Shown here: positions 3,962 to 38,442 of the stretch, piece by piece
Layout of the letters: the number at the start of each line of letters is the position of its first letter
Position numbering within the stretch: the first letter of the stretch is position 1
IMG/VR virus record: IMGVR_UViG_3300034190_001954
Coordinates: 1 to 44,659 of that record
Source of the DNA: a virus
Direction: 5' to 3' (one strand)
DNA length: 44,659 nt
The notes under the pieces: generated by a model
Told to the model about the DNA's origin: nothing
Database searches by the model: none
What the model saw: only the letters and a program-made list of their open reading frames with translations
Program-made: the position numbers and the translations under genes

Positions 3962-4119
3962 CACTTACGACCTTTCTTCTTTGCAGTCTTGGCTGACTTT
4001 TTGAATGCAGCGTTAGTAGGGGCACCCTTTGTACCCGGCTTTCTCATCTTCTCGCCTGATCCAGCCTTGATGCGCTTGCGCTTGGCGTGGATGTTGGCGT
4101 AAAGGCCTCTCTTAGCCAT
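3961..4119 (-). CDS. small basic protein, MAKRGLYANIHAKRKRI type
   Basis: Read from ATG at 4119 to TGA at 3961, 52 aa. It starts MAKRGLYANIHAKRKRIKAG and continues with a GSGEKMRKPGTKGAPT-type stretch and a Lys/Ala tail. I recognise this as a conserved small basic protein found in many marine and cyanobacterial phages, with no assigned function that I can name. Stop and start overlap the neighbours by one base. It belongs to the coupled basic cluster and may be a virion DNA-binding protein. Confidence 0.7.
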   Translation of the reverse strand: MAKRGLYANIHAKRKRIKAGSGEKMRKPGTKGAPTNAAFKKSAKTAKKKGRK

Positions 4120-4409
4120 TAGCAGTCCCACTTTCTAAGAGACTTGTTGATTCTGGAGTTTGGGTCACGGGCCGTCTTGCTGCCCGTGTTCTTTGCCTTC
4201 ATGCCCTTCATCCTTGCACAGAAGCTCTTGCGCCTAGCCGCCTTCTTGGGGCTTTTGGCCGCTGCCTTCTTGCTGACAGGGGGCTTCAGGGTTCCGCCAG
4301 TCTGTCGCTTGTAACTGGCCCTGCCCTTTGCGTTTAGTCCGCCTTCAGGATTTTTGCCAGCCTTTCGAGTCCACGCTGGAGACTTCTTAGCCGTCTTCTT
4401 TTTAGCCAT
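4119..4409 (-). CDS. basic protein of the DUF6321 type, 96 aa
   Basis: A 96-aa Lys/Arg-rich protein. The segment SPAWTRKAGKNPEGGLNAKG (about residues 10-29) and the later SFCARMKGM region match what I recall of the DUF6321 family of small phage and marine proteins; the family number is from memory. The first gene of the basic cluster, its stop overlaps the next ATG (TAATG). Its ribosome binding site (GAGG) is encoded by the acidic tail of the upstream 55-aa gene. Function is unknown. Confidence 0.7.
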   Translation of the reverse strand: MAKKKTAKKSPAWTRKAGKNPEGGLNAKGRASYKRQTGGTLKPPVSKKAAAKSPKKAARRKSFCARMKGMKAKNTGSKTARDPNSRINKSLRKWDC

Positions 4410-4411
4410 GT

Positions 4412-4579
4412 CTATTCCTCATCTTCTTCATCGTCGTCTACTTCGATGACCATCAGAATATCCATTGCAATATCGAACATCACCCCGGCCACGGACCATT
4501 TGTCCATGTCAAACTCTGTCTGCCAGTATACCACATGCTTCCGGACCTCTTCGTGCATCTTCTGTGCTGCAGATTTCAT
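4412..4579 (-). CDS. small acidic protein, 55 aa
   Basis: Read from ATG at 4579 to TAG at 4412. The protein (MKSAAQKMHEEVRKHVVYWQ) has an amphipathic helix-like first half, a hydrophobic centre (VMFDIAMDILMVIEV) and a tail of Asp/Glu (DDDEEDEE). Its start overlaps the stop of the metallophosphoesterase gene by 4 nt (ATGA). It precedes four strongly basic proteins, so a chaperone-like or charge-balancing partner is conceivable, but nothing in the sequence proves it. Confidence 0.55.
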   Translation of the reverse strand: MKSAAQKMHEEVRKHVVYWQTEFDMDKWSVAGVMFDIAMDILMVIEVDDDEEDEE

Positions 4580-5358
4580 GGCATTTCCCTAAGTTCTGCT
4601 TCCCAACATCGCCCATTTAGCCGACTTGGTTTATCCCAGATGCAGTCTATGACCAGCATCGCAGATCCCCACAGGGATGTATCTTTTCGCTTCATGTAAT
4701 TGGGCTGGAGCGGCCCGCAGGTTCCGACATTGGAGTACCAGAATGGTAGAGGTATCTTGGACGTTCGTTTGCATTGGGTTGGCGGCACTGGGCGGTGCGT
4801 ATGGCCTCTCACGGTCAAGCTGAAAGGAATCCAGCCGCAGGCCCCAACCATTTGCAATCCCTCAAGTTCGTCTGAGTTCATCGAGCAGTCGAAGCCGTGG
4901 TAGAAGTGGCACTGCCCGACCCGGTAAACGCCTTGGGCCGACTTGACATATGGCACCCAGTGCCAGTTGTTGAACTCCTCCCCATACTCGGGGTGGTTCT
5001 TCCAATGCACTAACCCACGCAGTTCCTTGGGTATACGCCTTGGATCTTGGCACATGAGGTTGTCGTCATGGTTGCCAGTGTTGATCCAGCGGATTGTGTC
5101 GGGTGGGAGAACCTCACGAATGGATCGGAGGAAGTTGTGTGCGTGTTCGTACTCGTCTGCCAGAGAATGCTCGAACTCGTTGGCGTGGACTGAGGCTGCC
5201 CCCGCCTCAAAAACGTCACCCAAGTGCCCAAAATGCGTAATGTCCGGGATTCCGGAAAGCTCTTGCAAGATCCACTCGTGGGTTTTTTCGGGCGTGAATG
5301 GCGAGTGGGTGCAGGAGATGACGGCTATCTTTGCTTTTTTCCGCCCTGTTTTGAGCAT
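4576..5358 (-). CDS. calcineurin-like metallophosphoesterase
   Basis: A 260-aa protein with the ordered motifs of the calcineurin-like phosphoesterase fold: SCTH (15-18), GHLGD (44-48), GNHDD (95-99), a single His in FYHGFD (154) and GHTH (185-188). These residues bind a two-metal centre that hydrolyses phosphate esters in nucleotides, nucleic acids or proteins. The canonical first Asp of the D-x-H motif is replaced by Cys16, which may change metal use. The N-terminus (LKTGRKKAK) is basic. The substrate is unknown; phages carry such genes widely. The start overlaps the end of the 93-aa gene by 34 nt. Confidence 0.85.
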   Translation of the reverse strand: MLKTGRKKAKIAVISCTHSPFTPEKTHEWILQELSGIPDITHFGHLGDVFEAGAASVHANEFEHSLADEYEHAHNFLRSIREVLPPDTIRWINTGNHDDNLMCQDPRRIPKELRGLVHWKNHPEYGEEFNNWHWVPYVKSAQGVYRVGQCHFYHGFDCSMNSDELEGLQMVGACGWIPFSLTVRGHTHRPVPPTQCKRTSKIPLPFWYSNVGTCGPLQPNYMKRKDTSLWGSAMLVIDCIWDKPSRLNGRCWEAELREMP

Positions 5359-5606
5359 TGCTTGCCTACTTGTGCCTCAAGGATGTTCAAGACCTTGCGC
5401 GTGTTGCTTGCGACATACAGGAGGTCTTGGTGGTCTTCTCCTTCGATATGGCTATATTCGGCAATATCCTCGATTATCACACAAAAGCCGCGCAACACAG
5501 AAAACAATTCAGTGTTGGTTGGCTTTATCTTTTTGAGGTTCAAGGGCTTCTGCCTAGATGACCGCCAAGAGGGGCCTTTGTCTGGCTGGCCCACGCTGTC
5601 GGTCAT
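5325..5606 (-). CDS. hypothetical protein, 93 aa
   Basis: A 93-aa protein starting directly after the stop of the dockerin-like gene (TGA-ATG). It has a basic, Ser/Lys-rich N-terminal third, then a helical segment (about residues 35-78: LFSVLRGFCVIIEDIAEY, LLYVASNTRKVLNILEAQVG), and a Lys/Gln-rich end. It overlaps the phosphoesterase gene by 34 nt. No family is recognised. The helical part resembles small phage regulators of unknown role. Confidence 0.6.
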   Translation of the reverse strand: MTDSVGQPDKGPSWRSSRQKPLNLKKIKPTNTELFSVLRGFCVIIEDIAEYSHIEGEDHQDLLYVASNTRKVLNILEAQVGKQCSKQGGKKQR

Positions 5607-6092
5607 TCATGCACCGTTCCATCCTGCAAGTAGCTTTGTGAGGTCGCTTCCTCCAACGACCCCATCAAAGTCCAAGTCCCACGGGCTATCAACTGAACCC
5701 CAATCTCCAAGCAACTTTTCTAAATCTTCTGGTCCAAACTCAGATTTGAGGCTGTAGAAGATGAAATGCCGGGGGACGCTGTAGGGCAAGACTTGGTACT
5801 CCGAGTGGAATATGCACCACTCAACACTGACAGTGTTCTCGCTTTGAGTCACGCTGTCAAATGGCAGAATGGGCTTGCCGGGATTCGCGGAATGCGAAGG
5901 GCCACCCAGTTCTGTTGCAAACTCACCATCGAAGTCGTGGTGCAAGCACCGCATGACAATTGGGCTAGTCACATGGAATGCTGCTGTCCCGGCATACACG
6001 GTGCGCGGGCCGTCCTGTGTGACGGTGTAGCTGACAAATGACTCCTCTCCTACCCATCCAGCTATCGAGAATAGAGCCACTGCCAGTTTCAT
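5607..6092 (-). CDS. secreted protein with C-terminal dockerin-like repeat
   Basis: A 161-aa protein. A short hydrophobic N-terminus (KLAVALFSIAGWVG) suggests export. Residues about 18-115 form an unrecognised beta-rich domain with three Cys. Residues 119-161 hold a degenerate first repeat ending LEKLLGDWGS and then DLDFDGVVGGSDLTKLLAGW. The D-x-D-x-D-G-x-V-x-x-x-D-L spacing is that of dockerin/EF-hand calcium loops, and the LL(G/A)xW ending is typical of repeats at the C-termini of many planctomycete surface proteins (family knowledge). A good ribosome site (GGAG, 6 nt) supports the start. It may have been acquired from the host; a role in lysis or cell-surface contact is inference. Confidence 0.7.
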   Translation of the reverse strand: MKLAVALFSIAGWVGEESFVSYTVTQDGPRTVYAGTAAFHVTSPIVMRCLHHDFDGEFATELGGPSHSANPGKPILPFDSVTQSENTVSVEWCIFHSEYQVLPYSVPRHFIFYSLKSEFGPEDLEKLLGDWGSVDSPWDLDFDGVVGGSDLTKLLAGWNGA

Positions 6093-6093
6093 A

Positions 6094-6237
6094 TCAGTCT
6101 CCCGACCACTTGCCGCCAGAGATGAGCCTCAGGAACGGCGCCTTGAAAACCATGCCAGCACCAAAGCTGCCAACAGCAACAAGAAGGATGAACCAAAAGG
6201 TGCCAAGAAAACTCGAAAGGGAAGCGAGAGTAGTCAT
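6094..6237 (-). CDS. single-span membrane protein, 47 aa
   Basis: The start is taken at ATG 6237 (MTTLASLSSFLGTFW), which overlaps the stop of the lipoprotein-like gene in an ATGA. The protein has one clear membrane segment (about residues 9-32, TFWFILLVAVGSFGAGMVF) and a short basic tail. Size and topology fit a small holin-type protein, and three other membrane proteins lie directly upstream, but no holin family signature is recognisable. Confidence 0.6.
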   Translation of the reverse strand: MTTLASLSSFLGTFWFILLVAVGSFGAGMVFKAPFLRLISGGKWSGD

Positions 6238-6611
6238 TTGCTCTTTTTCTCCAAAAGGATTTGTCGCACGATCTTGTAGGTCCATGCGGCGGAAATCATG
6301 CCAGTGAACACCACCAGCGGGTAGAACAGGAAATCGCTGTAGCGGGCCACTGCGTAGTTCAGGATTACCAGCAGTATGCCACCGACAATAGGGTACCAAC
6401 CCTTCTTGCCGCTTGTCACGACCAGCAGAACCATCCCTGCTGCGAGGCACAGGCCCCCAGTCACGCTCAACACAGACAGGGTTTCTGGGTGCTGTGTGGC
6501 CTTGTCAACGTAGTCCACAGCGTGACTACTGATGGACGGCAGAGGTTGCGCGTACTGACAGGCAGTAATGCAAGCTGCTGAAAAAATCAGAAGTCCACGA
6601 ATGTAGTTCAT
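6234..6611 (-). CDS. putative lipoprotein with three membrane segments
   Basis: The start is set at ATG 6611 (MNYIRGLLIFSAACITACQ), which puts a lipoprotein-type signal at the N-terminus: a charged start, hydrophobic core and I-T-A-C lipobox with Cys18 as the modified residue. Later residues form about three hydrophobic segments (LSVLSVTGGLCLAAGMVLLV, YPIVGGILLVILNYAV, FYPLVVFTGMISAAW) and a Lys-rich end. The lipobox could instead be part of a first membrane span. It sits in a cluster of four small membrane proteins, suggesting a lysis or envelope role. Confidence 0.6.
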   Translation of the reverse strand: MNYIRGLLIFSAACITACQYAQPLPSISSHAVDYVDKATQHPETLSVLSVTGGLCLAAGMVLLVVTSGKKGWYPIVGGILLVILNYAVARYSDFLFYPLVVFTGMISAAWTYKIVRQILLEKKSK

Positions 6612-6618
6612 GGTGAGC

Positions 6619-6816
6619 CTATACGTCCTTGCGGATTGTGAAGGCTTTCTCAAAGTGAGATTGCAACTTCCGTGCGTTGGACCCAATGCGCTCGTCATGT
6701 GCATTGAGACGCTGTTCAATCATGCTCAGTTTGCTATTTACGCGCCAAAGAAAACCAAAGATGCCAAGCAGTACTGGACCAGCCAGCCCCATCCCAAACT
6801 CAATAATCTGCTCCAC
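6619..6816 (-). CDS. small membrane protein with coiled coil, 65 aa (XhlA-like layout)
   Basis: Residues about 6-25 form a membrane span (FGMGLAGPVLLGIFGFLW) and residues 27-58 a likely coiled coil (KLSMIEQRLNAHDERI...). A span joined to a coiled coil is the general layout of haemolysin XhlA-like proteins and inner-membrane spanins in phage lysis regions. The sequence alone does not identify either. It neighbours another gene of the same layout (6821-7072), and the two may be partners. Confidence 0.6.
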   Translation of the reverse strand: MEQIIEFGMGLAGPVLLGIFGFLWRVNSKLSMIEQRLNAHDERIGSNARKLQSHFEKAFTIRKDV

Positions 6817-6820
6817 AGGT

Positions 6821-7072
6821 CTACCTTTGCTCCAAGATGCTGATGCGTTCCTTAAGTTCGTCTAAGACCTTGCTGTGTGTGGCGTCGTTCGCTTCAGCCA
6901 AAACTTGCGACTTCACAAGGTCTGTCGAAATGCTTCTCAGTTCGCTGATCTGACCGGCGTTGTAGGCAATGTCCCGATCACGCCGTCCGATATTTAGAAA
7001 AATGCCCGCAGCAGTCGCAGCCAAAACAATGGTTTGCACGATCTGCCACGGGTTGTGTGTTGCCTTATCCAT
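6821..7072 (-). CDS. small membrane protein with coiled coil, 83 aa
   Basis: The N-terminal part has one membrane span (about residues 12-27, VQTIVLAATAAGIFLN) followed by a long charged helix ending LDELKERISILEQR, likely a coiled coil. The layout resembles the 65-aa neighbour and lysis-region membrane proteins. It is the first gene downstream of a strong terminator (7081-7115), so this set probably has its own promoter or relies on read-through; I could not identify a convincing promoter. Confidence 0.6.
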   Translation of the reverse strand: MDKATHNPWQIVQTIVLAATAAGIFLNIGRRDRDIAYNAGQISELRSISTDLVKSQVLAEANDATHSKVLDELKERISILEQR

Positions 7073-26530: not shown

Positions 26531-27589
26531 ATGGCCTCTCTTCAGGCATCAGACATTGCTGATCTGATTACGACGACCCAGAAGGATCTGGGCCGTATGA
26601 AGTGGACCGACATCTCCTATTCGCTTCAGGAGCATGTCGCCCTCCCCATGATTCTCCAGAAGGAGAAGGTTTCCTACCAGTCCGGCAACGCCCTTCAGTG
26701 GAACGTGCAGACTGGCACCAGCGGCGCTGCCCGGGATACCGGTCTGTACGCGGTGGACAACGTCAACGTCTCGGATGTCATGCAGACTGCAACGGCACCG
26801 TGGCGTCACATGACCACCAACTACGCCATTGAGCGGCGCGAGATTGCGATGAACCGGACCCCGGCTCAGATCGTCGATCTCGTCAAGATTCGTCGCCACG
26901 ACGCGATGAGTTCGCTTGCTACTCACATGGAGCAGCGGTTCTGGGGTGCCCCCGGCGCTTCCGAAACCGATCGCCTCTATGGCATCCCGTACTGGATCAC
27001 CTACGGATCCGGCTCGGCCAACGGTGGTTTTGCTGGCGGCGACCCCGCCTACACTTCGGAAGGAACCGGCGCTGGTAACCTCGCGTCCGCTACCTACCCG
27101 AACTGGCAGAACTGGGTTTCGACCTACTCTTCCGTCACCTCGGACGACCTTGTCCGTCGTTGGCGCAAGGCTGCTACCTTCACCAACTTCAAGCCCCCGT
27201 CGCCCCACCCCGATTACATGGGCGGTGCGTCGAACTACGGCTTCTACACCAACTACAACGTCATTGGCCCCCTCGAAGAGCTTCTTGAAGCTCAGAACGA
27301 GAACCTTGGCAACGACGTTGCGTCCAAGGACGGCCAGCTTCTCTTCCGTCGGACCCCCGTCATGTGGGTTCCGCAGCTTGAGAACGCAACTGGCGATCCG
27401 GTCTACGGCATCAACTGGTCTTCGCTCCGGCCCGCGTTCCTCGCTGGCGAGTACCTCCGCGAAGAAGGCCCCTCGAAGGCTTCCAACCAGCACACCGTGT
27501 TCCTCAGCCACGTTGACCTGACCATGAACCTGATCTGTTACAACCGCCGTGCGAACTTCCTGCTCGCCACTGGTTCTGACATCTCCTAA
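26531..27589 (+). CDS. major capsid protein (HK97-type)
   Basis: A 352-aa protein from ATG 26531 (MASLQASDIADLITTTQ). Size, position after portal and scaffold, and the flow of residues 20-130 (WTDISYSLQEHVALPMI, NALQWNVQTGTSGAARDTGL, TTNYAIERREIAMNRTPAQ) match HK97-fold capsid proteins of short-tail marine phages. No protease domain is attached. It forms the icosahedral head shell. The ribosome site is weak, but the start aligns with the usual N-terminal helix. Confidence 0.87.
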   Translation: MASLQASDIADLITTTQKDLGRMKWTDISYSLQEHVALPMILQKEKVSYQSGNALQWNVQTGTSGAARDTGLYAVDNVNVSDVMQTATAPWRHMTTNYAIERREIAMNRTPAQIVDLVKIRRHDAMSSLATHMEQRFWGAPGASETDRLYGIPYWITYGSGSANGGFAGGDPAYTSEGTGAGNLASATYPNWQNWVSTYSSVTSDDLVRRWRKAATFTNFKPPSPHPDYMGGASNYGFYTNYNVIGPLEELLEAQNENLGNDVASKDGQLLFRRTPVMWVPQLENATGDPVYGINWSSLRPAFLAGEYLREEGPSKASNQHTVFLSHVDLTMNLICYNRRANFLLATGSDIS

Positions 27590-28450: not shown

Positions 28451-28678
28451 TTACATGTCTTGCATGTATTTGCCGACAGGACGGTGCGACGAATCCGTGG
28501 CACCGTGAGTCGGGTCAGTGGTTAGACGCGGCATGGGCCGAGGTGGTTCGAGAAACTTCTCCAGCATGATGTCAAACAAGTCAACAGCCTTGATACCGCG
28601 CTGTTTTGCAAGAAGTTTGACAGCAGAATAAGTCTCCTCGCGAACACGAACACTCACTGTCTCTGCCTTACGTCTCAT
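28451..28678 (-). CDS. ribbon-helix-helix protein, 75 aa
   Basis: A 75-aa protein starting MRRKAETVSVRVREETYSAV. A short strand (TVSVRV) followed by two helices (REETYSAVKLLAKQRG, AVDLFDIMLEKFLE) is the ribbon-helix-helix plan of small repressors. Its ATG overlaps the stop of the giant gene by 4 nt, so it may report the end of late-gene translation or regulate late transcription. Its operator is not identified. Confidence 0.75.
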   Translation of the reverse strand: MRRKAETVSVRVREETYSAVKLLAKQRGIKAVDLFDIMLEKFLEPPRPMPRLTTDPTHGATDSSHRPVGKYMQDM

Positions 28679-31600
28679 CGCGAACCACCATACTTCCTGT
28701 TCATGTATCTCTGAACGTCTGTCGAAGCGTTATCTACACGGCGCTGACCCACAGGCTTTCTTCGTGCTTCACGCTTGTTGTCGGCCCGTGCCTTCAAATC
28801 TCTCATGCTGATTCTAAGCTCAGGGTACATAGCATTGTGAAGCGCCACTATCTCTCTCGCAGTCTTCATGTCCCGAACAGCATAATACGTTGCAGCCTCG
28901 TCCTTGACACCGTCAATCAGCCGCATGACTGCCTGCTGGTGTGCCCACGCAGCACTGATTTCCGTTTCTTCCATAGTACGGAAACCACACATCTTTTTGA
29001 ACGTGAACTCAACAGTTGTGTTGAACTGGAACTCGCCCTGACTATTGAAGTAGGGGCGGCCAGAAGCCTCCATGTCCTGCGTTGCATCAAGGTAGTCACA
29101 CATGCTGTTCCATGCGTCAGGGATAAACCTGATCTGGTTTAGGGCTGGCGACGTATCCAGAATGCTCTTGAAGATGCGCTCAGGGGTGCTGACAGGAACG
29201 GCGGTCTTTTCCGTCAGATCGGTTGCAAGCCTGATGCCGCTGGTTCCTGCCGGACCTAAGAACTGGTTGCCCAAGATTTCAGCAAAGTTACGACCATAGG
29301 GCCTGTCAAGCAGTGCAACCGATCCACTGATGTCAATATCAAGCAGGCCAGCAAACATGCCATGTGCGACAGTGTTGGCTATAGCTCGCGAGCCAGTCAA
29401 TTCCTCCAGATACAGGCGGAATTCTTCAACGTCATCTCGTCCCGTAGGTGTTCCGTACCTCTGGCACGTTTCTGGGAATGCCGCGCAGAACCCACTCTTG
29501 CCGATCTCATAGAACGCAAGGGGCACGAGACCTCGCACGCCACCAAGAAGGAACTGCATTGCTGCAAACCGGGAAAATGCACCCATTCCTGTGGTGTTGT
29601 ACCCGGCCTCTTGGTCTACGCGACGGCCACGGTGGAGCATTGCATGTGCAAGCTGCACCTGATTTACCAAGAATCGCTTGAACTGGAAAGCGGTTGCAGC
29701 AATAGGGCTGCGCAGGAAGTAGGGCTGCGTTGTTCGCGTAAAGGCGTACTGTGTCATTGCAACGCCACGCACCATTGCAAACTCTGCGGCTTGGGTGTCA
29801 GACATCCCGAGCTTGCGCTTTGCATGGTCGAACATAGCCAAGAACGCAAAGTTTTGGTTTCGAACTTCAGAGCGCACTTCATACGGGACGTAATTCAGCA
29901 CGGCACGGCCAGCACGCTGTGCCGAGCGCAACGCCTTGACGCCCGAAACGCCTCCGCCCATTGGCGCGTCTCGGTACTTGCTACTGTCTGCACTCGGTCC
30001 AAACTGCTTGAGAATCCGACGGCCTTCCTTGCTGTTGTACAGAGTGATGGCACGAGCAAAGCCAACCTCACCAACAATAGGCCAAACGGTTTGCAGAGGC
30101 TGCAAGCTATTGACAACGTGCTGGCGAACGGTCTTCAGCTTGGTGAGATAGTGGAAGGAACGAACAAGGTGCAAGAAGCGCCTTGTTGGCCTGTGCCCCA
30201 TTTCCCAGTTCACGCGCAGTAGGCGCATGAGCGCATTGGGCTTATCCGTAGCGCTACCAAACATAGCTTCTAGGCTGCTATCCAGCCACTTCTCGACTGG
30301 GCCAGCGTGTTCGTCGCTTGCTGGGTAGATAATGTAGCTAGCCATATCCTCAAAATGCTTTGCCCAGTTGTGCAGCCCCTGCGCACGCATTTCGTCAACA
30401 CGCGGGAAAACGATCTTTCGAACATCTTGCGCCAGCATGTAACGGCGGTGCGCACGCCGCTGCATCTGCCAGACGCGCCAGAAGTCAGTCGAATACCCCT
30501 CTTTGCCAGTACGCTGAAGCATGGCGCCGTAGAAGGGGTTCTTGGACGATCTGGTGCCAACAATGCCCCGTGTTGCGTCGAAGATCTCTTGACTGGTCAG
30601 ATCTCCTGCCTGAGCAAGCTCGTCAAGGAGCATTGCGTGCTGCCTACTACTCAGGCGAACGGCCACATCACTGGGAACAGCGATACGCGGCAATGCAGCA
30701 ACAACAATCTTGCCGTCCTTGCGCAAGGCATCGTTGTTGTTCTTGTTGGCGTCCTCTATGTTCTTGACCATGCCAGCAGCGTCAGCCTGCGTTGCTGCAT
30801 GTCCGGTCACAACAAGCGCGTCGTACCTAGCCTGATATTCAGTTTTACCGCTGGCACGCGCTTTCAGGTACTTCTCTTCATCAATGTAGCCAACTTGATA
30901 TTCACCAAAGAATGCGTGGTGAATGTGTTCGTACTGATGACCCCAATCGTCAGTGTAAAGCAACTTTGCAAGTGCGCTGGCAGCGTCACCTGCTTCGTTG
31001 TCCGCAGTTTTGAGCAGTCTGTTGCCATCAGAATCGATGATGTAAGTGCGGATCTTGGTCGGATCACCACTGCGTGGCAACCGCTTCAGTTCCCAAGGCT
31101 TCTGTCCCTCTGGCAAAGCATCATTGGCTGCGTCAACGATGTCCTGAAGCGTTTTGCTAGCACCGCTGTAAACCCTATGAATAACGTCGCGCTTACTGCG
31201 CAAGATTTCTAGGCGCATGTCTTCGCCGCGAGCCTTAAAGTGCGCCAAAGCCCTACGAACCTTGGGAGGCAGATTCTTAGTCTCTTCGTTCGTGTCCACC
31301 TCGGAAGGGGCCACGCGGACCTTGTCCATAAGCTCGAAGAACTTTTCGCCCTTGTTCTTTCTGTATTCTCTAGGGAGACTGTCCCAGTATCTGCTGTCAG
31401 CGTCGTCCTGCTCAAGCTCGATGCGTCGATGCACAAGTTCCGCGTTAGTGAGCTTTGTTGCAGCGTCCTTCACAACACTCACAGTGCTGTTTGTGGCCGT
31501 GAACAGAATGTTGCCCACATATGAACGCCTTGCCTTAAGGTCGTCCTTTCTGGTTTCGACGAAGAACGTGTTTTCAAAGTCGCTTTGAATCTCGTCTTCG

Positions 31601-34600
31601 ACATCCAGACCAATAAGCCTGTTTGCAGATGCAAGGACGGAGTTCCCCAGCGGGGTGTCAGGGACTTCATCCGGGTACTGACCATCTTCCACGGTGGTGT
31701 CATTGCTTTCGCCATCACGGTTCAATGGCATGGGGCGGAAGTCGATTGTGTATGCGCCGCTTTCTGAGTCTTCAACATCCACCCGCGCAGCATCTGTGAG
31801 TTGGTAGATATCCAGAGGTGCGCCGGTGCCAGTCAAAAGACTGTCAAGAATGCCATGGTCAGTGGAACCGCCTTCGTCGCTAAGTGCAGTTGCATACTGC
31901 CGATCACCGCTGGTAAAGAACTTTCGGATAGCCCTTAGGCGGTTAGCTTGTGGCCCAACAAGGTTGCTGTGCCGGTACATCTTCTTTCCGGCAGCGTCCT
32001 TGTCTGGGCTTACCATTGCAACGCCAGAAACAATCTCGCCAGCTTCGCTTGCATTAATAGCGTCTGCGATTTGTGCGATGAGAATATCAGGCACGGGTGG
32101 GCGCGTAACCTTGGCGCTTTCTTCTTCCGCCTTGAAAGCTCTAGCCATTTGCTGTCGGCGCACCTGACCCTTTTCGTTTGTAGGCACACTCAGGATTGCT
32201 GCCCTATCACCACCAACTGTCAGGGGCGGAGCAGCAAACGAGTCCCTAACTTGATCGACAAGTTTGGGCATACCGGCTTTCTTGAACTTGGCAAGCTCTT
32301 TAAGCCCATCCTTAGTTACCTTGTCAGGGTCATCGGCAATGTCTTGTTCATCGAAGGCAGAGATGGCAATAAACCGAAGCGACTCTGTGCTTGGATCATA
32401 TTCGTATGCAACAGGGGTTGGCGGAAGGTTAACCATCCACAGTTCGTCAAGCTGCTGACCGTGTGCGAACGCAATGCGCGATATTCCCTTTTGCACCGCG
32501 ATCTTCATGATCTGCTTGGCAAGAAGACCGTACAGGCCGCGCTCATGGTGGTCCTTATCAAGCAGCGGCAGGGGCGGCATTCCCGGGGTATCCATAGCAG
32601 GAAGCACCTGAGTGCGCATTGCTCCGCCGACTTGATTAGCTGCACTATGGGCAGTGCTTGCCGGGTCACGGGCAATAGACTTGTCGTTCAGCCCAATTGC
32701 AATCGGAATCAGCGCGTCTCCGACTTCACTGACATCGATGCCTAGCTCGTCTGCAATGACTTCAGCTTGGGCCAAAGACATATTGTAGGCAACGCCAGTT
32801 TCCATATTCATTACGGAAACGACTTCGCCGTGCGTGACTATACGCATCTTCTTTCTGTCAACGTATGTGCTTTGGACGCCGTCTTCGCGGCGAGGGTCCA
32901 TGCCGTAAAGGCCACGGTCCTTCATGTAATCACTTTGCATTTCACCGACAAACAGCACATCATTGCCGTCAGCATCAGTTCTGATGTCATATCTGATGTG
33001 ACCAGCAAGGTTCGTTCGGATTTGCGTCGGAGTGAACTTAACATCAAGGTCAGACTCAACCAAAAGCGTGCCTCGATCGGCCCGCACAAGCCCAAAGTGC
33101 GAGGACTTGTAGGTAGTGGTTGTTCCAAGCCCATAGGTTGTAAGCATAACCTCGGTATACTCACGGGCTTTGGCCGACGCAGGAGACATCTTTTTCGTGG
33201 GTTTATCAAACCAATGATTTGCGTACTTGGGCTGCACCAAATGCTTGCCAAAGTCGGGGGACTCGGTGTCTGCCAGAGCGTTTATTAGCTCCCCAAAAAG
33301 ACCCGAAAAAGTTCCGCCAGTAAAGTACGCATTGGCACGGCGAAGATTATCGAGATCGATTTCGTGCGTAGACTTGTAACCGTCCTTTGCAAGAACCACT
33401 ATGCCTGTGTCAGAATCTGCGCTTCTGTCAACAAAGTCAGTGCTATTCTTGGGCGCAAACTGAGCAACCATGCCTGCGTTGGCTGCTGTGAAGCTAATCT
33501 CAATTTGATGTGGCCTATTAGTATTTGGGTCGATCAGGGTTTCGGTGCCAAATCGACTATCAAGATCTTCTACATTCAACTGGCCGCCAAACTCGTTTAG
33601 TAGCTCGCCATCTAGGTTGCCATGCAACACAAAGTCGTTGCCAAGCAAGCTAACTACATCAGGCATGTTAAGTGTCAAACGCTGATTGCGATTCCGCTCC
33701 ACCAGCTTGTCATTTATTTTCAGAGATGTGAAATCATCATACTCGCCACCCTTTGTGCGTGTACGGACATAGAAAGTGGTTTCGAGCGTGTAACGAAGCT
33801 CCGGCTTCCTGTTCTCACTAAACTCAAACACGATCTTGGGGTCCGTCATACGAGCCGTCATGCGAATCTCGTAATCAAGGTCCACGCCCATTTGTTCGGT
33901 CAAATGCTTAGTGAGGGCTTTTCCAGTATCAGTGCTGGCGATTTCTTCCTTTGTCAAAGTCATGGAATCAAAACGGCCAGCAACAAGCTGCGCAAAGTGA
34001 TCGTTAGTTCCATCGAATATGTCTGCTACAGGGGCCTTCACACGAACCCCCATTTCGAAGCGTTGATCTCCTGATTGCAGCGCCGATTGGGCAACTTCCG
34101 TAGCAGCGTGCTGCTTAATTACTGGAGCAGTTGCAAACAGGAAGGTGTCAACTTCCTCTTTAGTTGCACGCACAACCTTTGGTTGCTTGCCGTCATTTTC
34201 CGCAGTGCGCCGTGCAACAATCTCGTCAACAAAGTGGTTCCAGTTGCGCCAATCAGCCTCTTGCTTGAGAGAGGCAGTGAAGTTTCGCTCGACATCCTGA
34301 ATAGGCGTGCCCTTTTTGCCGCTGTACTCAGGCCTCCTGAGGAACCGCGCTAGCGCAGTTTGCATTGGCCTGACAGCGGGGGGCATCATTGTCGTTCCCG
34401 CAACAGTCTTGTCGGTATCGTCAAGATCCCTGTTCAGGGTGGGATTGCCATCGCGAGTGATCGTTCTTTCAGACTGCCGCAGATCAGCAAAAATCTGCTT
34501 GTAAATCCTTGCGGCCTCAGCTTTCTGTCGAACAGAAAAGTCAGATTCGCTTTGTGCTTCGAGGCGCTTAAGCAGTTCAAAGTTCTTCGGACCAAGCCTT

Positions 34601-37600
34601 TGCTCTACAGTCTGACGCAGCCGCAAAACCTCAAGCAGCTTTTGGACAAACCGAATAAACGGCCCGGGCGCCTCTCGAAGCAGTTCATCAATGACGGCAC
34701 TATCTGCGTGGATGAACTCGATAATTCTTTCAGCCAGCATCGCTGGCCCTTCAACCGCCAGCATCCAATCATCAGGCTTCGACGCAGTCTGCTCGCCGGT
34801 ACTGTCGCTTTGCAACTGACGTGCTTCGTAAGCAGCGGACCATGAGCGAAGCGCCTTTTCCATCGCCTCAGGTGCAATGCGCTGAAGCGCCTTGAACAGA
34901 CGGGCTACATCACCCGGCTTGGCTTCGCCCTGCCAAGTGTGAACAAGCTCATGCAGCAGGACGGCCTCCATTGGGACCGTTCCGCTGTCTGCGCGAAGGG
35001 CAATAGCGTTCGGGTTGCGGTACTGGCCCGCAGTCTTGCCTTCTCCGCCCTCGTAAAACAGAACCGATACACCAAGGCCCTTGGCAAATTCGGCTGCTTC
35101 GAGTTCACGTTCGTTTTTGGGAGATGTCCCGATTTTAACATCAATGCCTTCAGTTTCGATCAAGCCCAATGCGGCGAACACCAAGCCCAGTTCTTCGTTG
35201 CTAAGGGAGTCAATGTCCCCGCCAAGACGCGCAGGAGCAGCCCCCTTGGCCCGGTCCTTCGCAGATCGGTCTTGAGGGAAGAGCAGGCTGGCTTGCGGAA
35301 CAACTTCAATCAACTTGTCAAGAACACGCTGCCCGTGGTTAACTTCCTCAGGCGCTTCCGCCGCGTCTTCACGAACAGAAGAAGCCGTGTTTGCAGAACG
35401 CTGGCGCTGCTGCTCACTCTTTTCTGAAGCGCGTGTTGCATTTGCAAAAGCGCGACGGATGTTTTGCGTCAGGTTCTTTCTTTGAAGCTCTGGGTCCGGC
35501 CCTGCCTCTTCCGCAGCAGGGCCTGCTGCCGCCTCGACAACTTCACGCTCTAGCTCTTCGGCTTCTGCGTTGCTAATTTCAGTTTCTTCAACAGGTACGA
35601 CTTCTTCCTGTCGCGGCTCCTGCACCTCTGGCTCAGGCTCTTCTGTCACAGGCTGTTCGGTAATGGTGGGTTCGGTTCCAATCTCTACCAGCGTGCCTGC
35701 GGGATCTTGCGGTGCCTGTTCTGTTTCCACACGCGAGGCTTCTGCATCTGCCTCTTGAGTTGTGTCGATTTCAGGCAGCGTTGCGACATTCGATTGCACT
35801 GCGGCCCAGAAGCGAGCGCGAGCCTGTCCACTATTGGACTTGTGCTTGCGATTGAAAAGAGTCTCCATTTCCGACCGAGAAGGAGGGCTAGGTGCTTCTG
35901 CAATGCTTCGTGCCAGTTCGGGGTTATCGAGTACCCATTCACGCAATTCCATGTTTGCCAGTGGGTCACCACCAGCAAACGCAACGTCTGCCTCAAGAGT
36001 GCCGCGTGCGTCCTCACGCAACTGCCGCTTGTCAGTAACCTCAGCCTTCTCGCCCAGCTTTTGACGAACAGCGGGGGGCCGCTCGGGTTCTGTCTGTTGC
36101 AAAGCCCGAACGTCGGCTTCTTCCATCTGCAAGCCATGTCTGCGGGTCAGCGCAATGCGTGCTTCAAGGGGAGTAACCGGGCGGTTGATGTAACCAACAC
36201 CATTTGTGCCAGTCGCTGTAATCCTCAGATCTTTAACGTCTTCGCCAATCGCAACCTCAAAGCCACTTGCGGCAACTTGGGCCAGCTCTTGATCTGAGAA
36301 CTGATCGAATGAGTCCTCTACGTTCTCAACGAACTCAATCGACTTTTGGTATTCCTCCGCTCGCTTCTTCTTTTCCTTGAGGCTCAACTCGCCAAGCTGG
36401 GCCAAAACTTCTTGCTTGCTCGGCTTCTTGTCGGTGATTCCAGCGATAACGCCAGCAGGCGCATCCATGACGGCGCCGACACCAGCAATGAGAGCGATCT
36501 GATTCCAAGTTTCAGGGTCACCTTCAATCAGCCGGTCAAACATGGACTCTTCATCGCGGCTGTAGGAAATGAGCGCGTCAGCGACTACTTCCTCAATGAC
36601 CTCTTGCGTTGCGCCGGTAGCACCTGCCACCAAGCCCTTGCGTGCAATGCGAGCAGCCGCATAGGTCAAATGCTTCCGGAATCCCGGAATCTTCTCAAGC
36701 ACGAACTTGCCAGCGATGTACTCAGTTGCAGCCGTGACGGTGTATGCAGTGGCTGCCTCCATGTGGGCCTTAGCCAGAGCCTGTTCGACTGAGTAGCCAT
36801 TTGCTACCGCATCTTCGTAGCCGTCGATGAACTGGCGACCACCAACCTCTGCTGCGCTTGTGATTGCAAAAGTCGTTGCACGAAGCCGAGCCTGCCGCTT
36901 AATCGCCTTCTTGACCATGGCCTGAGACAGAGTCTGGCCACCAGACGTAACAGGGGCACTAGATCCGCCCGTTACAATCGCCAGCCCAAGCTCGAAGAGG
37001 GTGGCGGGTGCTTCCCGTGCCGCCTCCGTCATAAGCTGGAACAGGTAGGCCCGCTCATTCAGCGGCGTCTCATCAGCAGTATCGACATAGCCAAGGAACT
37101 TCTGGCTCTGGTTGACCTGCATTGCTGCGTCGATGTTGTACGTCGGGTCCAAGAACTGGGCACCATCAATGCCCACGGCATCAAGTCCGGAGATAGCGGA
37201 CTGCGTGACAAACGCAATGCTGCCACGGGTCGCAGAAACCATTTCCCGTGAGCCGTCCATAACGGCGTCGTAGAGGCTTTCTCCCAGACCGGGGTGCCTG
37301 ACTGACAAAAACCCTGAAAGGTCGTGTAGGCCCTTTCTAGGGCTTCTCATGGAAAGCAGGGACTTGCGGGCGCTCTCCATGGCCTGCTGTGCGTATGCGT
37401 TGGCCTTGTCGCGCTGCACACTGACCGGCTCATTGCCGTACAGGATGTCAACCAGACCAGTATAGAACTCACCATATGCACCACTGATGTTAGTAATAAA
37501 TCCACCAGCATCAGCATTAAGCAGGGATGAGAACGCATCCTTCATGGCGTAGTGCGTGCGGCCCAGAACTTCTTCCACACCCGGTGTGGTAAAGAACTCT

Positions 37601-38442
37601 CCGTCAACACCACGCTCAACCTGCCTGCGGCCAAACTGGGTTTCGACGCCAAGCTGCCGACGCTCTTCCATCCGCTCCAGATCTGCGAGCGTTGGCGTCC
37701 TGCCCTCTGGGGCAACCATCATGCCGCGCTGCGCGGTTGCAATCCTTGCAAACGGGTCTGCCGGGGCCTCAAGGGCAGGTTCACGATCCTGACCACGTTT
37801 TCTGGCTTTTGTGAATCTTTCTTCAAATGCCTTCTCAAACTCCTTCGGGTCCACCCCCTCAGGAACTGGCGGCAGCACACGACCCGTAGGGCCAGCACCC
37901 ATTTCGGCTCGCTGCACTTCAAGCATCCCAGCCGTTCGCTCAGGCAAATCCATGGGACTCTGGTTGTATTCGACCGGAGTGAGGTTGGCCTTGTCTCCAC
38001 GCTCTCTCTGGTTGCGAATCACATCCGCTGCCGTCATTGGCTTGGGCTGTGCGGCGGGCGGTGGCTCCTCGTCTTCGACAGGGATCTCCAGCCCTTGCTG
38101 CTGCATCACCGTGTTTCTATAGGCACGCACCTTGTCGTAGAAGTTGGGTTCACCGCGCTTTATATGCGGGAACCGCGTCTCTACCATGACGAGTGCTTTT
38201 TCAAGGGCCTGCTTTTGTGCCCGCTGGTATTCGAGGTTCGCCTTCTGCCTTGATCGAATCTCGTCCTGTGTCTCTTGCGGACTAGGCGGCTTCGGCTCTT
38301 CAATGCCAACGCGAACAGGCTGCTCCAGTGGCTCTTCCGGAGTTCCGGAAACTACTGGCGCAGGCTCTGGCGCGGGCTGAGTTGTGGGGGTGGCGGGAAA
38401 CTTCTTCGCAAGAAGACCTTCAAACAGTTCTTTTTCGTTCAT
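28675..38442 (-). CDS. giant internal virion / large polyvalent protein, 3255 aa
   Basis: A single uninterrupted gene of 9.77 kb, about a fifth of the window. N-terminal region (1-110) is Pro-rich and charged with a KALVMVETRFP segment. A zincin-type HELVH motif (1164-1168) in VLLHELVHTWQGE could bind zinc. GEMQSD (1833-1838) is a motif of large polyvalent proteins, in which EiQSD-type domains recur (family knowledge). Residues about 2900-2990 (RFAAMQFLLGGVRGLVPLAFYEI) form a hydrophobic region resembling LPD38-type C-terminal domains. Such proteins are packaged inside the head and enter the host with DNA to counter defences. No full catalytic site is confirmed. Confidence 0.75.
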   Translation of the reverse strand: MNEKELFEGLLAKKFPATPTTQPAPEPAPVVSGTPEEPLEQPVRVGIEEPKPPSPQETQDEIRSRQKANLEYQRAQKQALEKALVMVETRFPHIKRGEPNFYDKVRAYRNTVMQQQGLEIPVEDEEPPPAAQPKPMTAADVIRNQRERGDKANLTPVEYNQSPMDLPERTAGMLEVQRAEMGAGPTGRVLPPVPEGVDPKEFEKAFEERFTKARKRGQDREPALEAPADPFARIATAQRGMMVAPEGRTPTLADLERMEERRQLGVETQFGRRQVERGVDGEFFTTPGVEEVLGRTHYAMKDAFSSLLNADAGGFITNISGAYGEFYTGLVDILYGNEPVSVQRDKANAYAQQAMESARKSLLSMRSPRKGLHDLSGFLSVRHPGLGESLYDAVMDGSREMVSATRGSIAFVTQSAISGLDAVGIDGAQFLDPTYNIDAAMQVNQSQKFLGYVDTADETPLNERAYLFQLMTEAAREAPATLFELGLAIVTGGSSAPVTSGGQTLSQAMVKKAIKRQARLRATTFAITSAAEVGGRQFIDGYEDAVANGYSVEQALAKAHMEAATAYTVTAATEYIAGKFVLEKIPGFRKHLTYAAARIARKGLVAGATGATQEVIEEVVADALISYSRDEESMFDRLIEGDPETWNQIALIAGVGAVMDAPAGVIAGITDKKPSKQEVLAQLGELSLKEKKKRAEEYQKSIEFVENVEDSFDQFSDQELAQVAASGFEVAIGEDVKDLRITATGTNGVGYINRPVTPLEARIALTRRHGLQMEEADVRALQQTEPERPPAVRQKLGEKAEVTDKRQLREDARGTLEADVAFAGGDPLANMELREWVLDNPELARSIAEAPSPPSRSEMETLFNRKHKSNSGQARARFWAAVQSNVATLPEIDTTQEADAEASRVETEQAPQDPAGTLVEIGTEPTITEQPVTEEPEPEVQEPRQEEVVPVEETEISNAEAEELEREVVEAAAGPAAEEAGPDPELQRKNLTQNIRRAFANATRASEKSEQQRQRSANTASSVREDAAEAPEEVNHGQRVLDKLIEVVPQASLLFPQDRSAKDRAKGAAPARLGGDIDSLSNEELGLVFAALGLIETEGIDVKIGTSPKNERELEAAEFAKGLGVSVLFYEGGEGKTAGQYRNPNAIALRADSGTVPMEAVLLHELVHTWQGEAKPGDVARLFKALQRIAPEAMEKALRSWSAAYEARQLQSDSTGEQTASKPDDWMLAVEGPAMLAERIIEFIHADSAVIDELLREAPGPFIRFVQKLLEVLRLRQTVEQRLGPKNFELLKRLEAQSESDFSVRQKAEAARIYKQIFADLRQSERTITRDGNPTLNRDLDDTDKTVAGTTMMPPAVRPMQTALARFLRRPEYSGKKGTPIQDVERNFTASLKQEADWRNWNHFVDEIVARRTAENDGKQPKVVRATKEEVDTFLFATAPVIKQHAATEVAQSALQSGDQRFEMGVRVKAPVADIFDGTNDHFAQLVAGRFDSMTLTKEEIASTDTGKALTKHLTEQMGVDLDYEIRMTARMTDPKIVFEFSENRKPELRYTLETTFYVRTRTKGGEYDDFTSLKINDKLVERNRNQRLTLNMPDVVSLLGNDFVLHGNLDGELLNEFGGQLNVEDLDSRFGTETLIDPNTNRPHQIEISFTAANAGMVAQFAPKNSTDFVDRSADSDTGIVVLAKDGYKSTHEIDLDNLRRANAYFTGGTFSGLFGELINALADTESPDFGKHLVQPKYANHWFDKPTKKMSPASAKAREYTEVMLTTYGLGTTTTYKSSHFGLVRADRGTLLVESDLDVKFTPTQIRTNLAGHIRYDIRTDADGNDVLFVGEMQSDYMKDRGLYGMDPRREDGVQSTYVDRKKMRIVTHGEVVSVMNMETGVAYNMSLAQAEVIADELGIDVSEVGDALIPIAIGLNDKSIARDPASTAHSAANQVGGAMRTQVLPAMDTPGMPPLPLLDKDHHERGLYGLLAKQIMKIAVQKGISRIAFAHGQQLDELWMVNLPPTPVAYEYDPSTESLRFIAISAFDEQDIADDPDKVTKDGLKELAKFKKAGMPKLVDQVRDSFAAPPLTVGGDRAAILSVPTNEKGQVRRQQMARAFKAEEESAKVTRPPVPDILIAQIADAINASEAGEIVSGVAMVSPDKDAAGKKMYRHSNLVGPQANRLRAIRKFFTSGDRQYATALSDEGGSTDHGILDSLLTGTGAPLDIYQLTDAARVDVEDSESGAYTIDFRPMPLNRDGESNDTTVEDGQYPDEVPDTPLGNSVLASANRLIGLDVEDEIQSDFENTFFVETRKDDLKARRSYVGNILFTATNSTVSVVKDAATKLTNAELVHRRIELEQDDADSRYWDSLPREYRKNKGEKFFELMDKVRVAPSEVDTNEETKNLPPKVRRALAHFKARGEDMRLEILRSKRDVIHRVYSGASKTLQDIVDAANDALPEGQKPWELKRLPRSGDPTKIRTYIIDSDGNRLLKTADNEAGDAASALAKLLYTDDWGHQYEHIHHAFFGEYQVGYIDEEKYLKARASGKTEYQARYDALVVTGHAATQADAAGMVKNIEDANKNNNDALRKDGKIVVAALPRIAVPSDVAVRLSSRQHAMLLDELAQAGDLTSQEIFDATRGIVGTRSSKNPFYGAMLQRTGKEGYSTDFWRVWQMQRRAHRRYMLAQDVRKIVFPRVDEMRAQGLHNWAKHFEDMASYIIYPASDEHAGPVEKWLDSSLEAMFGSATDKPNALMRLLRVNWEMGHRPTRRFLHLVRSFHYLTKLKTVRQHVVNSLQPLQTVWPIVGEVGFARAITLYNSKEGRRILKQFGPSADSSKYRDAPMGGGVSGVKALRSAQRAGRAVLNYVPYEVRSEVRNQNFAFLAMFDHAKRKLGMSDTQAAEFAMVRGVAMTQYAFTRTTQPYFLRSPIAATAFQFKRFLVNQVQLAHAMLHRGRRVDQEAGYNTTGMGAFSRFAAMQFLLGGVRGLVPLAFYEIGKSGFCAAFPETCQRYGTPTGRDDVEEFRLYLEELTGSRAIANTVAHGMFAGLLDIDISGSVALLDRPYGRNFAEILGNQFLGPAGTSGIRLATDLTEKTAVPVSTPERIFKSILDTSPALNQIRFIPDAWNSMCDYLDATQDMEASGRPYFNSQGEFQFNTTVEFTFKKMCGFRTMEETEISAAWAHQQAVMRLIDGVKDEAATYYAVRDMKTAREIVALHNAMYPELRISMRDLKARADNKREARRKPVGQRRVDNASTDVQRYMNRKYGGSR

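Follow-up and report, generated by a model that had tools for sequence, protein, structure and literature searches.

Type I dockerins (PF00404; structures 6kg9 and 2y3n) are C-terminal repeats built from a calcium loop and a helix. In freshwater Planctomycetes (Nemodlikiaceae) such modules underlie the "planctosome" hypothesis, which, in the part of that account drawn on here, envisages extracellular dockerin proteins joined to each other by cohesin-dockerin contacts (PMC6461901). Literature searches on dockerins in planctomycetes or phages, which covered an open-access library, brought up no account of such a module encoded by a phage. Among phage proteins, those for superinfection exclusion are small, exported products of accessory genes that act at the cell surface and are for the most part held in place by a lipid or a membrane helix. 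Dockerins as such, including planctomycete dockerins, are already known, and what is new here is a conserved one-loop form of the module on an accessory phage protein.

The window, i.e. the whole stretch of DNA analysed, corresponds to a linear virus record 44,659 bases long and encodes a dockerin-tailed protein of 161 aa, hereafter DOCK (Table 1). DOCK ends in FGPEDLEKLLGDWGSVDSPWDLDFDGVVGGSDLTKLLAGWNGA, and residues 119-161 correspond to DNA 5610-5738, exactly where an earlier note on this DNA had placed the tail (the last 43 residues). The loop of the second repeat contains the D-x-[DN]-x-D-G...D pattern, predicted from sequence to coordinate calcium, with G at loop position 9 where orthologs have D, N or G, and it aligns to PDB 6kg9 in a profile search with the orthologs. 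The tandem loop-helix pair is incomplete in this window type: repeat 2 is whole, and of repeat 1 just the helix is left in the nine aligned orthologs. Since the first calcium loop is missing in all nine of these and also in further window-type orthologs, its loss marks a conserved form and not the decayed copy of one phage. What had been described as a "degenerate copy" is this conserved form. Purifying selection acts on close ortholog pairs and extends to the tail, with dN/dS of 0.06-0.23 over the last 50 residues in the three window-type pairs (dS was saturated in one ortholog pair of this analysis).

Table 1. Features of the window that bear on the dockerin-tailed protein, its neighbourhood and the placement of the phage family.
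Feature	Position	Strand	Remarks
KR96	4119..4409	-	Small basic protein; often beside the dockerin gene; DUF6321 in the L068 homologue
MPE, calcineurin-like metallophosphoesterase	4576..5358	-	Conserved cassette member; Pfam PF00149 over cut-off, phrog_221
"93", ORF after DOCK	5325..5606	-	Present also in L206 and L207, which have no DOCK
DOCK, 161-aa dockerin-tailed protein	5607..6092	-	GGGAG motif precedes start; begins one base past the tm47 stop
Second dockerin repeat	5619..5678	-	Loop and helix with LLAGW end
Stretch cleanly absent in L206	5623..6093		blastn match up to 6094, resumes at 5622
Intact calcium loop DLDFDGVVGGSD of second repeat (D139, D141, D143, D150)	5643..5678	-	Direct reading; kept in nine orthologs
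First dockerin repeat, truncated	5697..5738	-	Helix FGPEDLEKLLGDWG without calcium loop; model helix 121-129
N-terminal beta-sandwich domain (predicted), conserved C49 and C93	5745..6044	-	Alignment, AlphaFold, weak fibre-head fold likeness
N-terminal hydrophobic stretch MKLAVALFSIAGWVGE, possible weak signal peptide	6045..6092	-	Hydropathy; low pLDDT
tm47, 47-aa protein with one TM	6094..6237	-	Conserved cassette member
tm161, multi-TM protein	6234..6650	-	Conserved cassette member; start uncertain
"65", one TM and coiled-coil-like tail	6619..6816	-	Conserved cassette member
"83", one TM and coiled-coil-like tail	6821..7072	-	Conserved cassette member
Major capsid protein	26531..27589	+	phrog_9953; used to place phage family and hosts
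3255-aa ORF	28675..38442	-	No Pfam match over cut-off; relatives about 25-52% identical

Searched on its own, DOCK has no dockerin match in Pfam, NCBIfam or PHROGs, and in Pfam and NCBIfam none even at loose cut-offs. The earlier note had named the lack of such a profile match as grounds for refutation, but these blanks are overruled by better-powered profile tests. An HMM of 80 cellular dockerins, run against all ORFs of the window, scored DOCK at 37.5 bits (E 1e-10, aligned to positions 12-48 of the 49 in the model) and the next-best ORF at 13.6 bits, while a profile made from nine DOCK orthologs matches solved dockerins (6kg9 at E 7.8e-5). All three relatives tested (L039, L024, L045) pass the Pfam cut-off of Dockerin_1 (PF00404), and the modelled protein of a relative has a dockerin fold match in 2y3n_B (TMt 0.78). 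The top NCBIfam dockerin-type match of relatives with a full dockerin is NF041540 (L039 at E 7e-6); here the best relative scored 26.4 bits against a cut-off of 29 bits, and DOCK gave no match. The dockerin-type tail proposed in the earlier note is thereby borne out, with the qualification that the profile evidence comes from the cellular-dockerin HMM, the ortholog profile and the relatives, and not from DOCK's own searches of the three libraries.

The cellular dockerins behind this HMM were the best 80 loci of a genome-collection scan in which an alignment of phage dockerins served as query, a sample biased towards the phage's type. Within it, 73 loci are titled Planctomycetota, 5 "uncultured bacterium" and 2 Bacteroidia/Chitinophaga, and the helix end D-L-x-x-L-L-x-x-W (LLxxW) is present in every one (80/80), in agreement with the planctomycete style that had been suggested for the tail. 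Dockerin_1 exceeds the Pfam cut-off in 95/120 Phycisphaerae genomes, often in dozens of copies, and Pfam cohesin does so in only 18/120. Planctomycete dockerins are thus many and cohesins rare. A host origin of the N-terminal domain is not supported: a search of 392 planctomycete genomes with this part of DOCK returned one weak partial match, so that only the tail looks host-type.

The capsid profile found 1/392 genomes in a draw from the phylum Planctomycetota and 7/397 in a class draw (the draws overlap partly; 789 genome searches in total, covering planctomycete genomes), and the capsid family had no member in 50,697 phage records. One of the eight matches belongs to an integrated prophage (L175-L178) in a 6.96-Mb planctomycete contig, where terminase, portal and capsid keep the same order and lie between an integrase and the planctomycete cytochrome genes PSCyt1, PSCyt2 and PSD1; it is the clearest case. 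Planctomycetota are therefore hosts of this capsid family, as the earlier note had supposed for the phage; because the matching capsids are 22-41% identical to that of the window, the host set applies to the family at the level of the phylum and not to the species of this phage. The integrated prophage might also provide a temperate relative to work with in the laboratory. All eight capsid-bearing genomes encode dockerins of their own, and Pfam cohesin was found in none of them (0/9 searched), nor were dockerin genes found in the host prophage regions that were fetched. A protein closely related to the dockerin protein of L051 is encoded beside phage-like genes on a contig filed in a Phycisphaerae genome (L088); the capsid search of this genome and of those of L083, L156 and L080 gave no match.

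The dockerin gene sits in a cassette with the conserved order 83-65-tm161-tm47-[DOCK]-MPE-55. Collecting cassette loci via MPE, with dockerins disregarded, yielded 13 contigs with the cassette. A window-type dockerin gene lies between tm47 and MPE in 7/13 of them (L205 is near-identical to the window, and L210 and L211 are near-identical to each other), a different dockerin protein is encoded after "55" in 2/13, and the remaining 4/13 are without a dockerin gene. In L206, whose MPE is 92% identical to that of the window, exactly the dockerin gene is missing. DOCK is an accessory gene that some of these phages have and others lack at one and the same position. "Host-derived cargo", as it had been called, is apt insofar as an optional gene at a fixed site fits cargo, and host-derived holds for the tail only.

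In fold searches, viral fibre heads came closest to the DOCK N-terminal domain, weakly (E 0.02, TM < 0.4); looking for a named function, nothing in the PDB matched at E < 0.001, and the best viral fold match, A0A516MFS6 (E 1.6e-7), carries no name. No 19-residue segment of the DOCK N-terminus reaches TM level. Most orthologs have an N-terminal hydrophobic stretch, that of L051 being a good signal-like sequence and L045 having none, and the cysteine pair is present in both dockerin-protein families. Secretion, which the earlier note took as given, would be consistent with the hydrophobic stretch and the conserved cysteines, although the stretch is weak in the window copy.

We consider it an even call that DOCK is a small exported protein whose predicted beta-sandwich is fixed to the planctomycete envelope by a host-type dockerin and alters the surface there. 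It would be made in the infected cell and then exported, as the N-terminal hydrophobic stretches and the cysteine pair suggest. The tail would fold on calcium, given its intact loop, and, by analogy with what is known of the family, might bind the host factor that receives the host's own dockerins. Such docking would keep the beta-sandwich at the host surface or within the envelope, where the surface would most likely be masked or altered during infection; blocking the adsorption of further phages is one guess. Several observations temper this picture. The capsid-bearing genomes have no Pfam cohesin, so the docking partner may be of another kind; the window-type tail, with a single calcium loop instead of two, may not bind; the N-terminus of DOCK is weak as a signal peptide; and the host prophage regions fetched carry no dockerin gene.

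Dockerins also occur on other proteins of these phages. Full C-terminal dockerin pairs are found on proteins of phages that share the window's capsid, and 3/10 large records picked by capsid alone carry a dockerin. The N-terminal domains of the window-type group and of a capsid-adjacent group are both predicted beta-sandwiches, yet the proteins can be aligned only in the dockerin, and a single homologous N-terminal family is unsupported for these two groups. A third type of N-terminal domain is encoded after MPE-55 in L195/L198, and both the capsid-adjacent and the third-type dockerins have two full loop-helix repeats. The constant part is the dockerin tail, and the N-terminal domains vary. 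Tentatively, the dockerin could be a swappable address tag that joins at least three N-terminal types (plus a protease-like one on soil contigs) for delivery to a host surface complex during infection, with the one-loop tail as a phage-made variant; we regard this as possible but not probable.

Dockerin-like modules were also observed in further viral contexts. On soil viral contigs (L053-L061, e.g. L059:5164-6243) a protein of 360 aa combines a GDSGS motif like that of serine proteases with a dockerin pair, and in L058-L061 its gene stands directly behind a homologue of the window's KR96. In other phages the KR96 domain forms the end of longer proteins, whose PHROG profiles span 336-928 positions. 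A KR96 homologue followed by a dockerin protein is found at L051:5527-6171, in a contig whose terminase is, by eye, apparently T7-like; KR96 and the dockerin gene may thus travel together from one phage to an unrelated one. On L070, L071 (incomplete) and L078, contigs that resemble T4-like cyanophages, structural-type proteins of 830-902 aa contain a dockerin-like pair in their interior, so that such repeats also occur in phages other than those of planctomycetes. Further, a 2149-aa protein of a viral contig (L052:3652-10098) has about 16 dockerin-like repeats, and a 361-aa protein with several EF-hand-like loops (L202, record G762) is encoded beside a window-type dockerin protein in the same phage. 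Searches by tblastn in phage records gave no match for DOCK, the L051 protein or the capsid, and an idealised dockerin query gave none in plasmids.

The main rival to a surface role in the infected cell is adhesion by the virion, in which the protein would belong to the particle or to its fibres and the dockerin would grip dockerin-binding proteins on the host surface before infection. The dockerin gene of the capsid-adjacent group follows fibre-like genes and precedes zn125-scaffold-capsid; in L039, L068, L065 and L046 it adjoins them just downstream, within the portal-to-capsid block, the fibre genes having Mtd_N in L039 and collagen plus Phage_tail_C in L068. A dockerin gene in this position would equally suit a virion part, and the likeness of the DOCK N-terminal domain to viral fibre heads points the same way. 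On the other hand, these fold matches are weak and the gene of the window's clade sits among small membrane-protein genes. To our knowledge, virion proteins seldom have signal-like N-termini, which also counts against adhesion, and overall we find it rather unlikely.

The earlier note placed the gene near a possible lysis region, and small membrane-protein genes do lie upstream of DOCK. DOCK could be a lysis accessory that, together with these proteins, assists in opening the planctomycete envelope when infection ends, a role for which the conserved order 83-65-tm161-tm47-DOCK-MPE, with its one-TM and multi-TM proteins, and a marginal Rz-spanin match of the comparable L051 protein might speak. 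However, in those proteins of the window that were scanned Pfam detected no endolysin, and the lysis region stays putative. Moreover, four relatives have the complete cassette but no dockerin gene, which means that the gene is not needed for lysis and makes an involvement of DOCK improbable. We are slightly more sceptical still of a tail that is just a calcium-stabilised C-terminal cap without a partner, in a passenger gene without a surface role. Such a cap would account for the truncated first repeat, the lack of a recognisable cohesin in the eight capsid-bearing genomes and the dispensability of the gene, but not for a tail that is conserved in detail, recurs on different N-terminal domains and is under purifying selection in close pairs. 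Finally, that a short acidic motif merely looks like a dockerin, as DOCK's lack of matches in both Pfam and NCBIfam at permissive thresholds might imply, is barely credible given the relatives over the Pfam cut-off, the cellular-dockerin HMM and the conservation among orthologs, and is ruled out by the match of the ortholog profile to solved dockerins.

The phage tail, kept on different domains, offers a small, testable probe for the receptor of host dockerins, and dockerin tails may mark the hosts of unassigned phages. Compared with the planctosome, which in the part of the published account considered here involves host peptidases and cohesins and speaks of no phage component (PMC6461901), the hosts of this phage family are represented by eight capsid-bearing genomes without a Pfam cohesin. 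Another counterpart is the GC-type dockerin domain-anchored protein (NF041540); the relatives tested stay below its 29-bit cut-off, and DOCK has no match. With type I dockerins DOCK shares the C-terminal position and the repeat of calcium loop and helix, but the window-type tails are without the first calcium loop, are encoded by a phage and belong to no cellulosome. Compared with superinfection-exclusion proteins, the difference would lie in the proposed anchor, which in DOCK would be a docking repeat of the host's own type.
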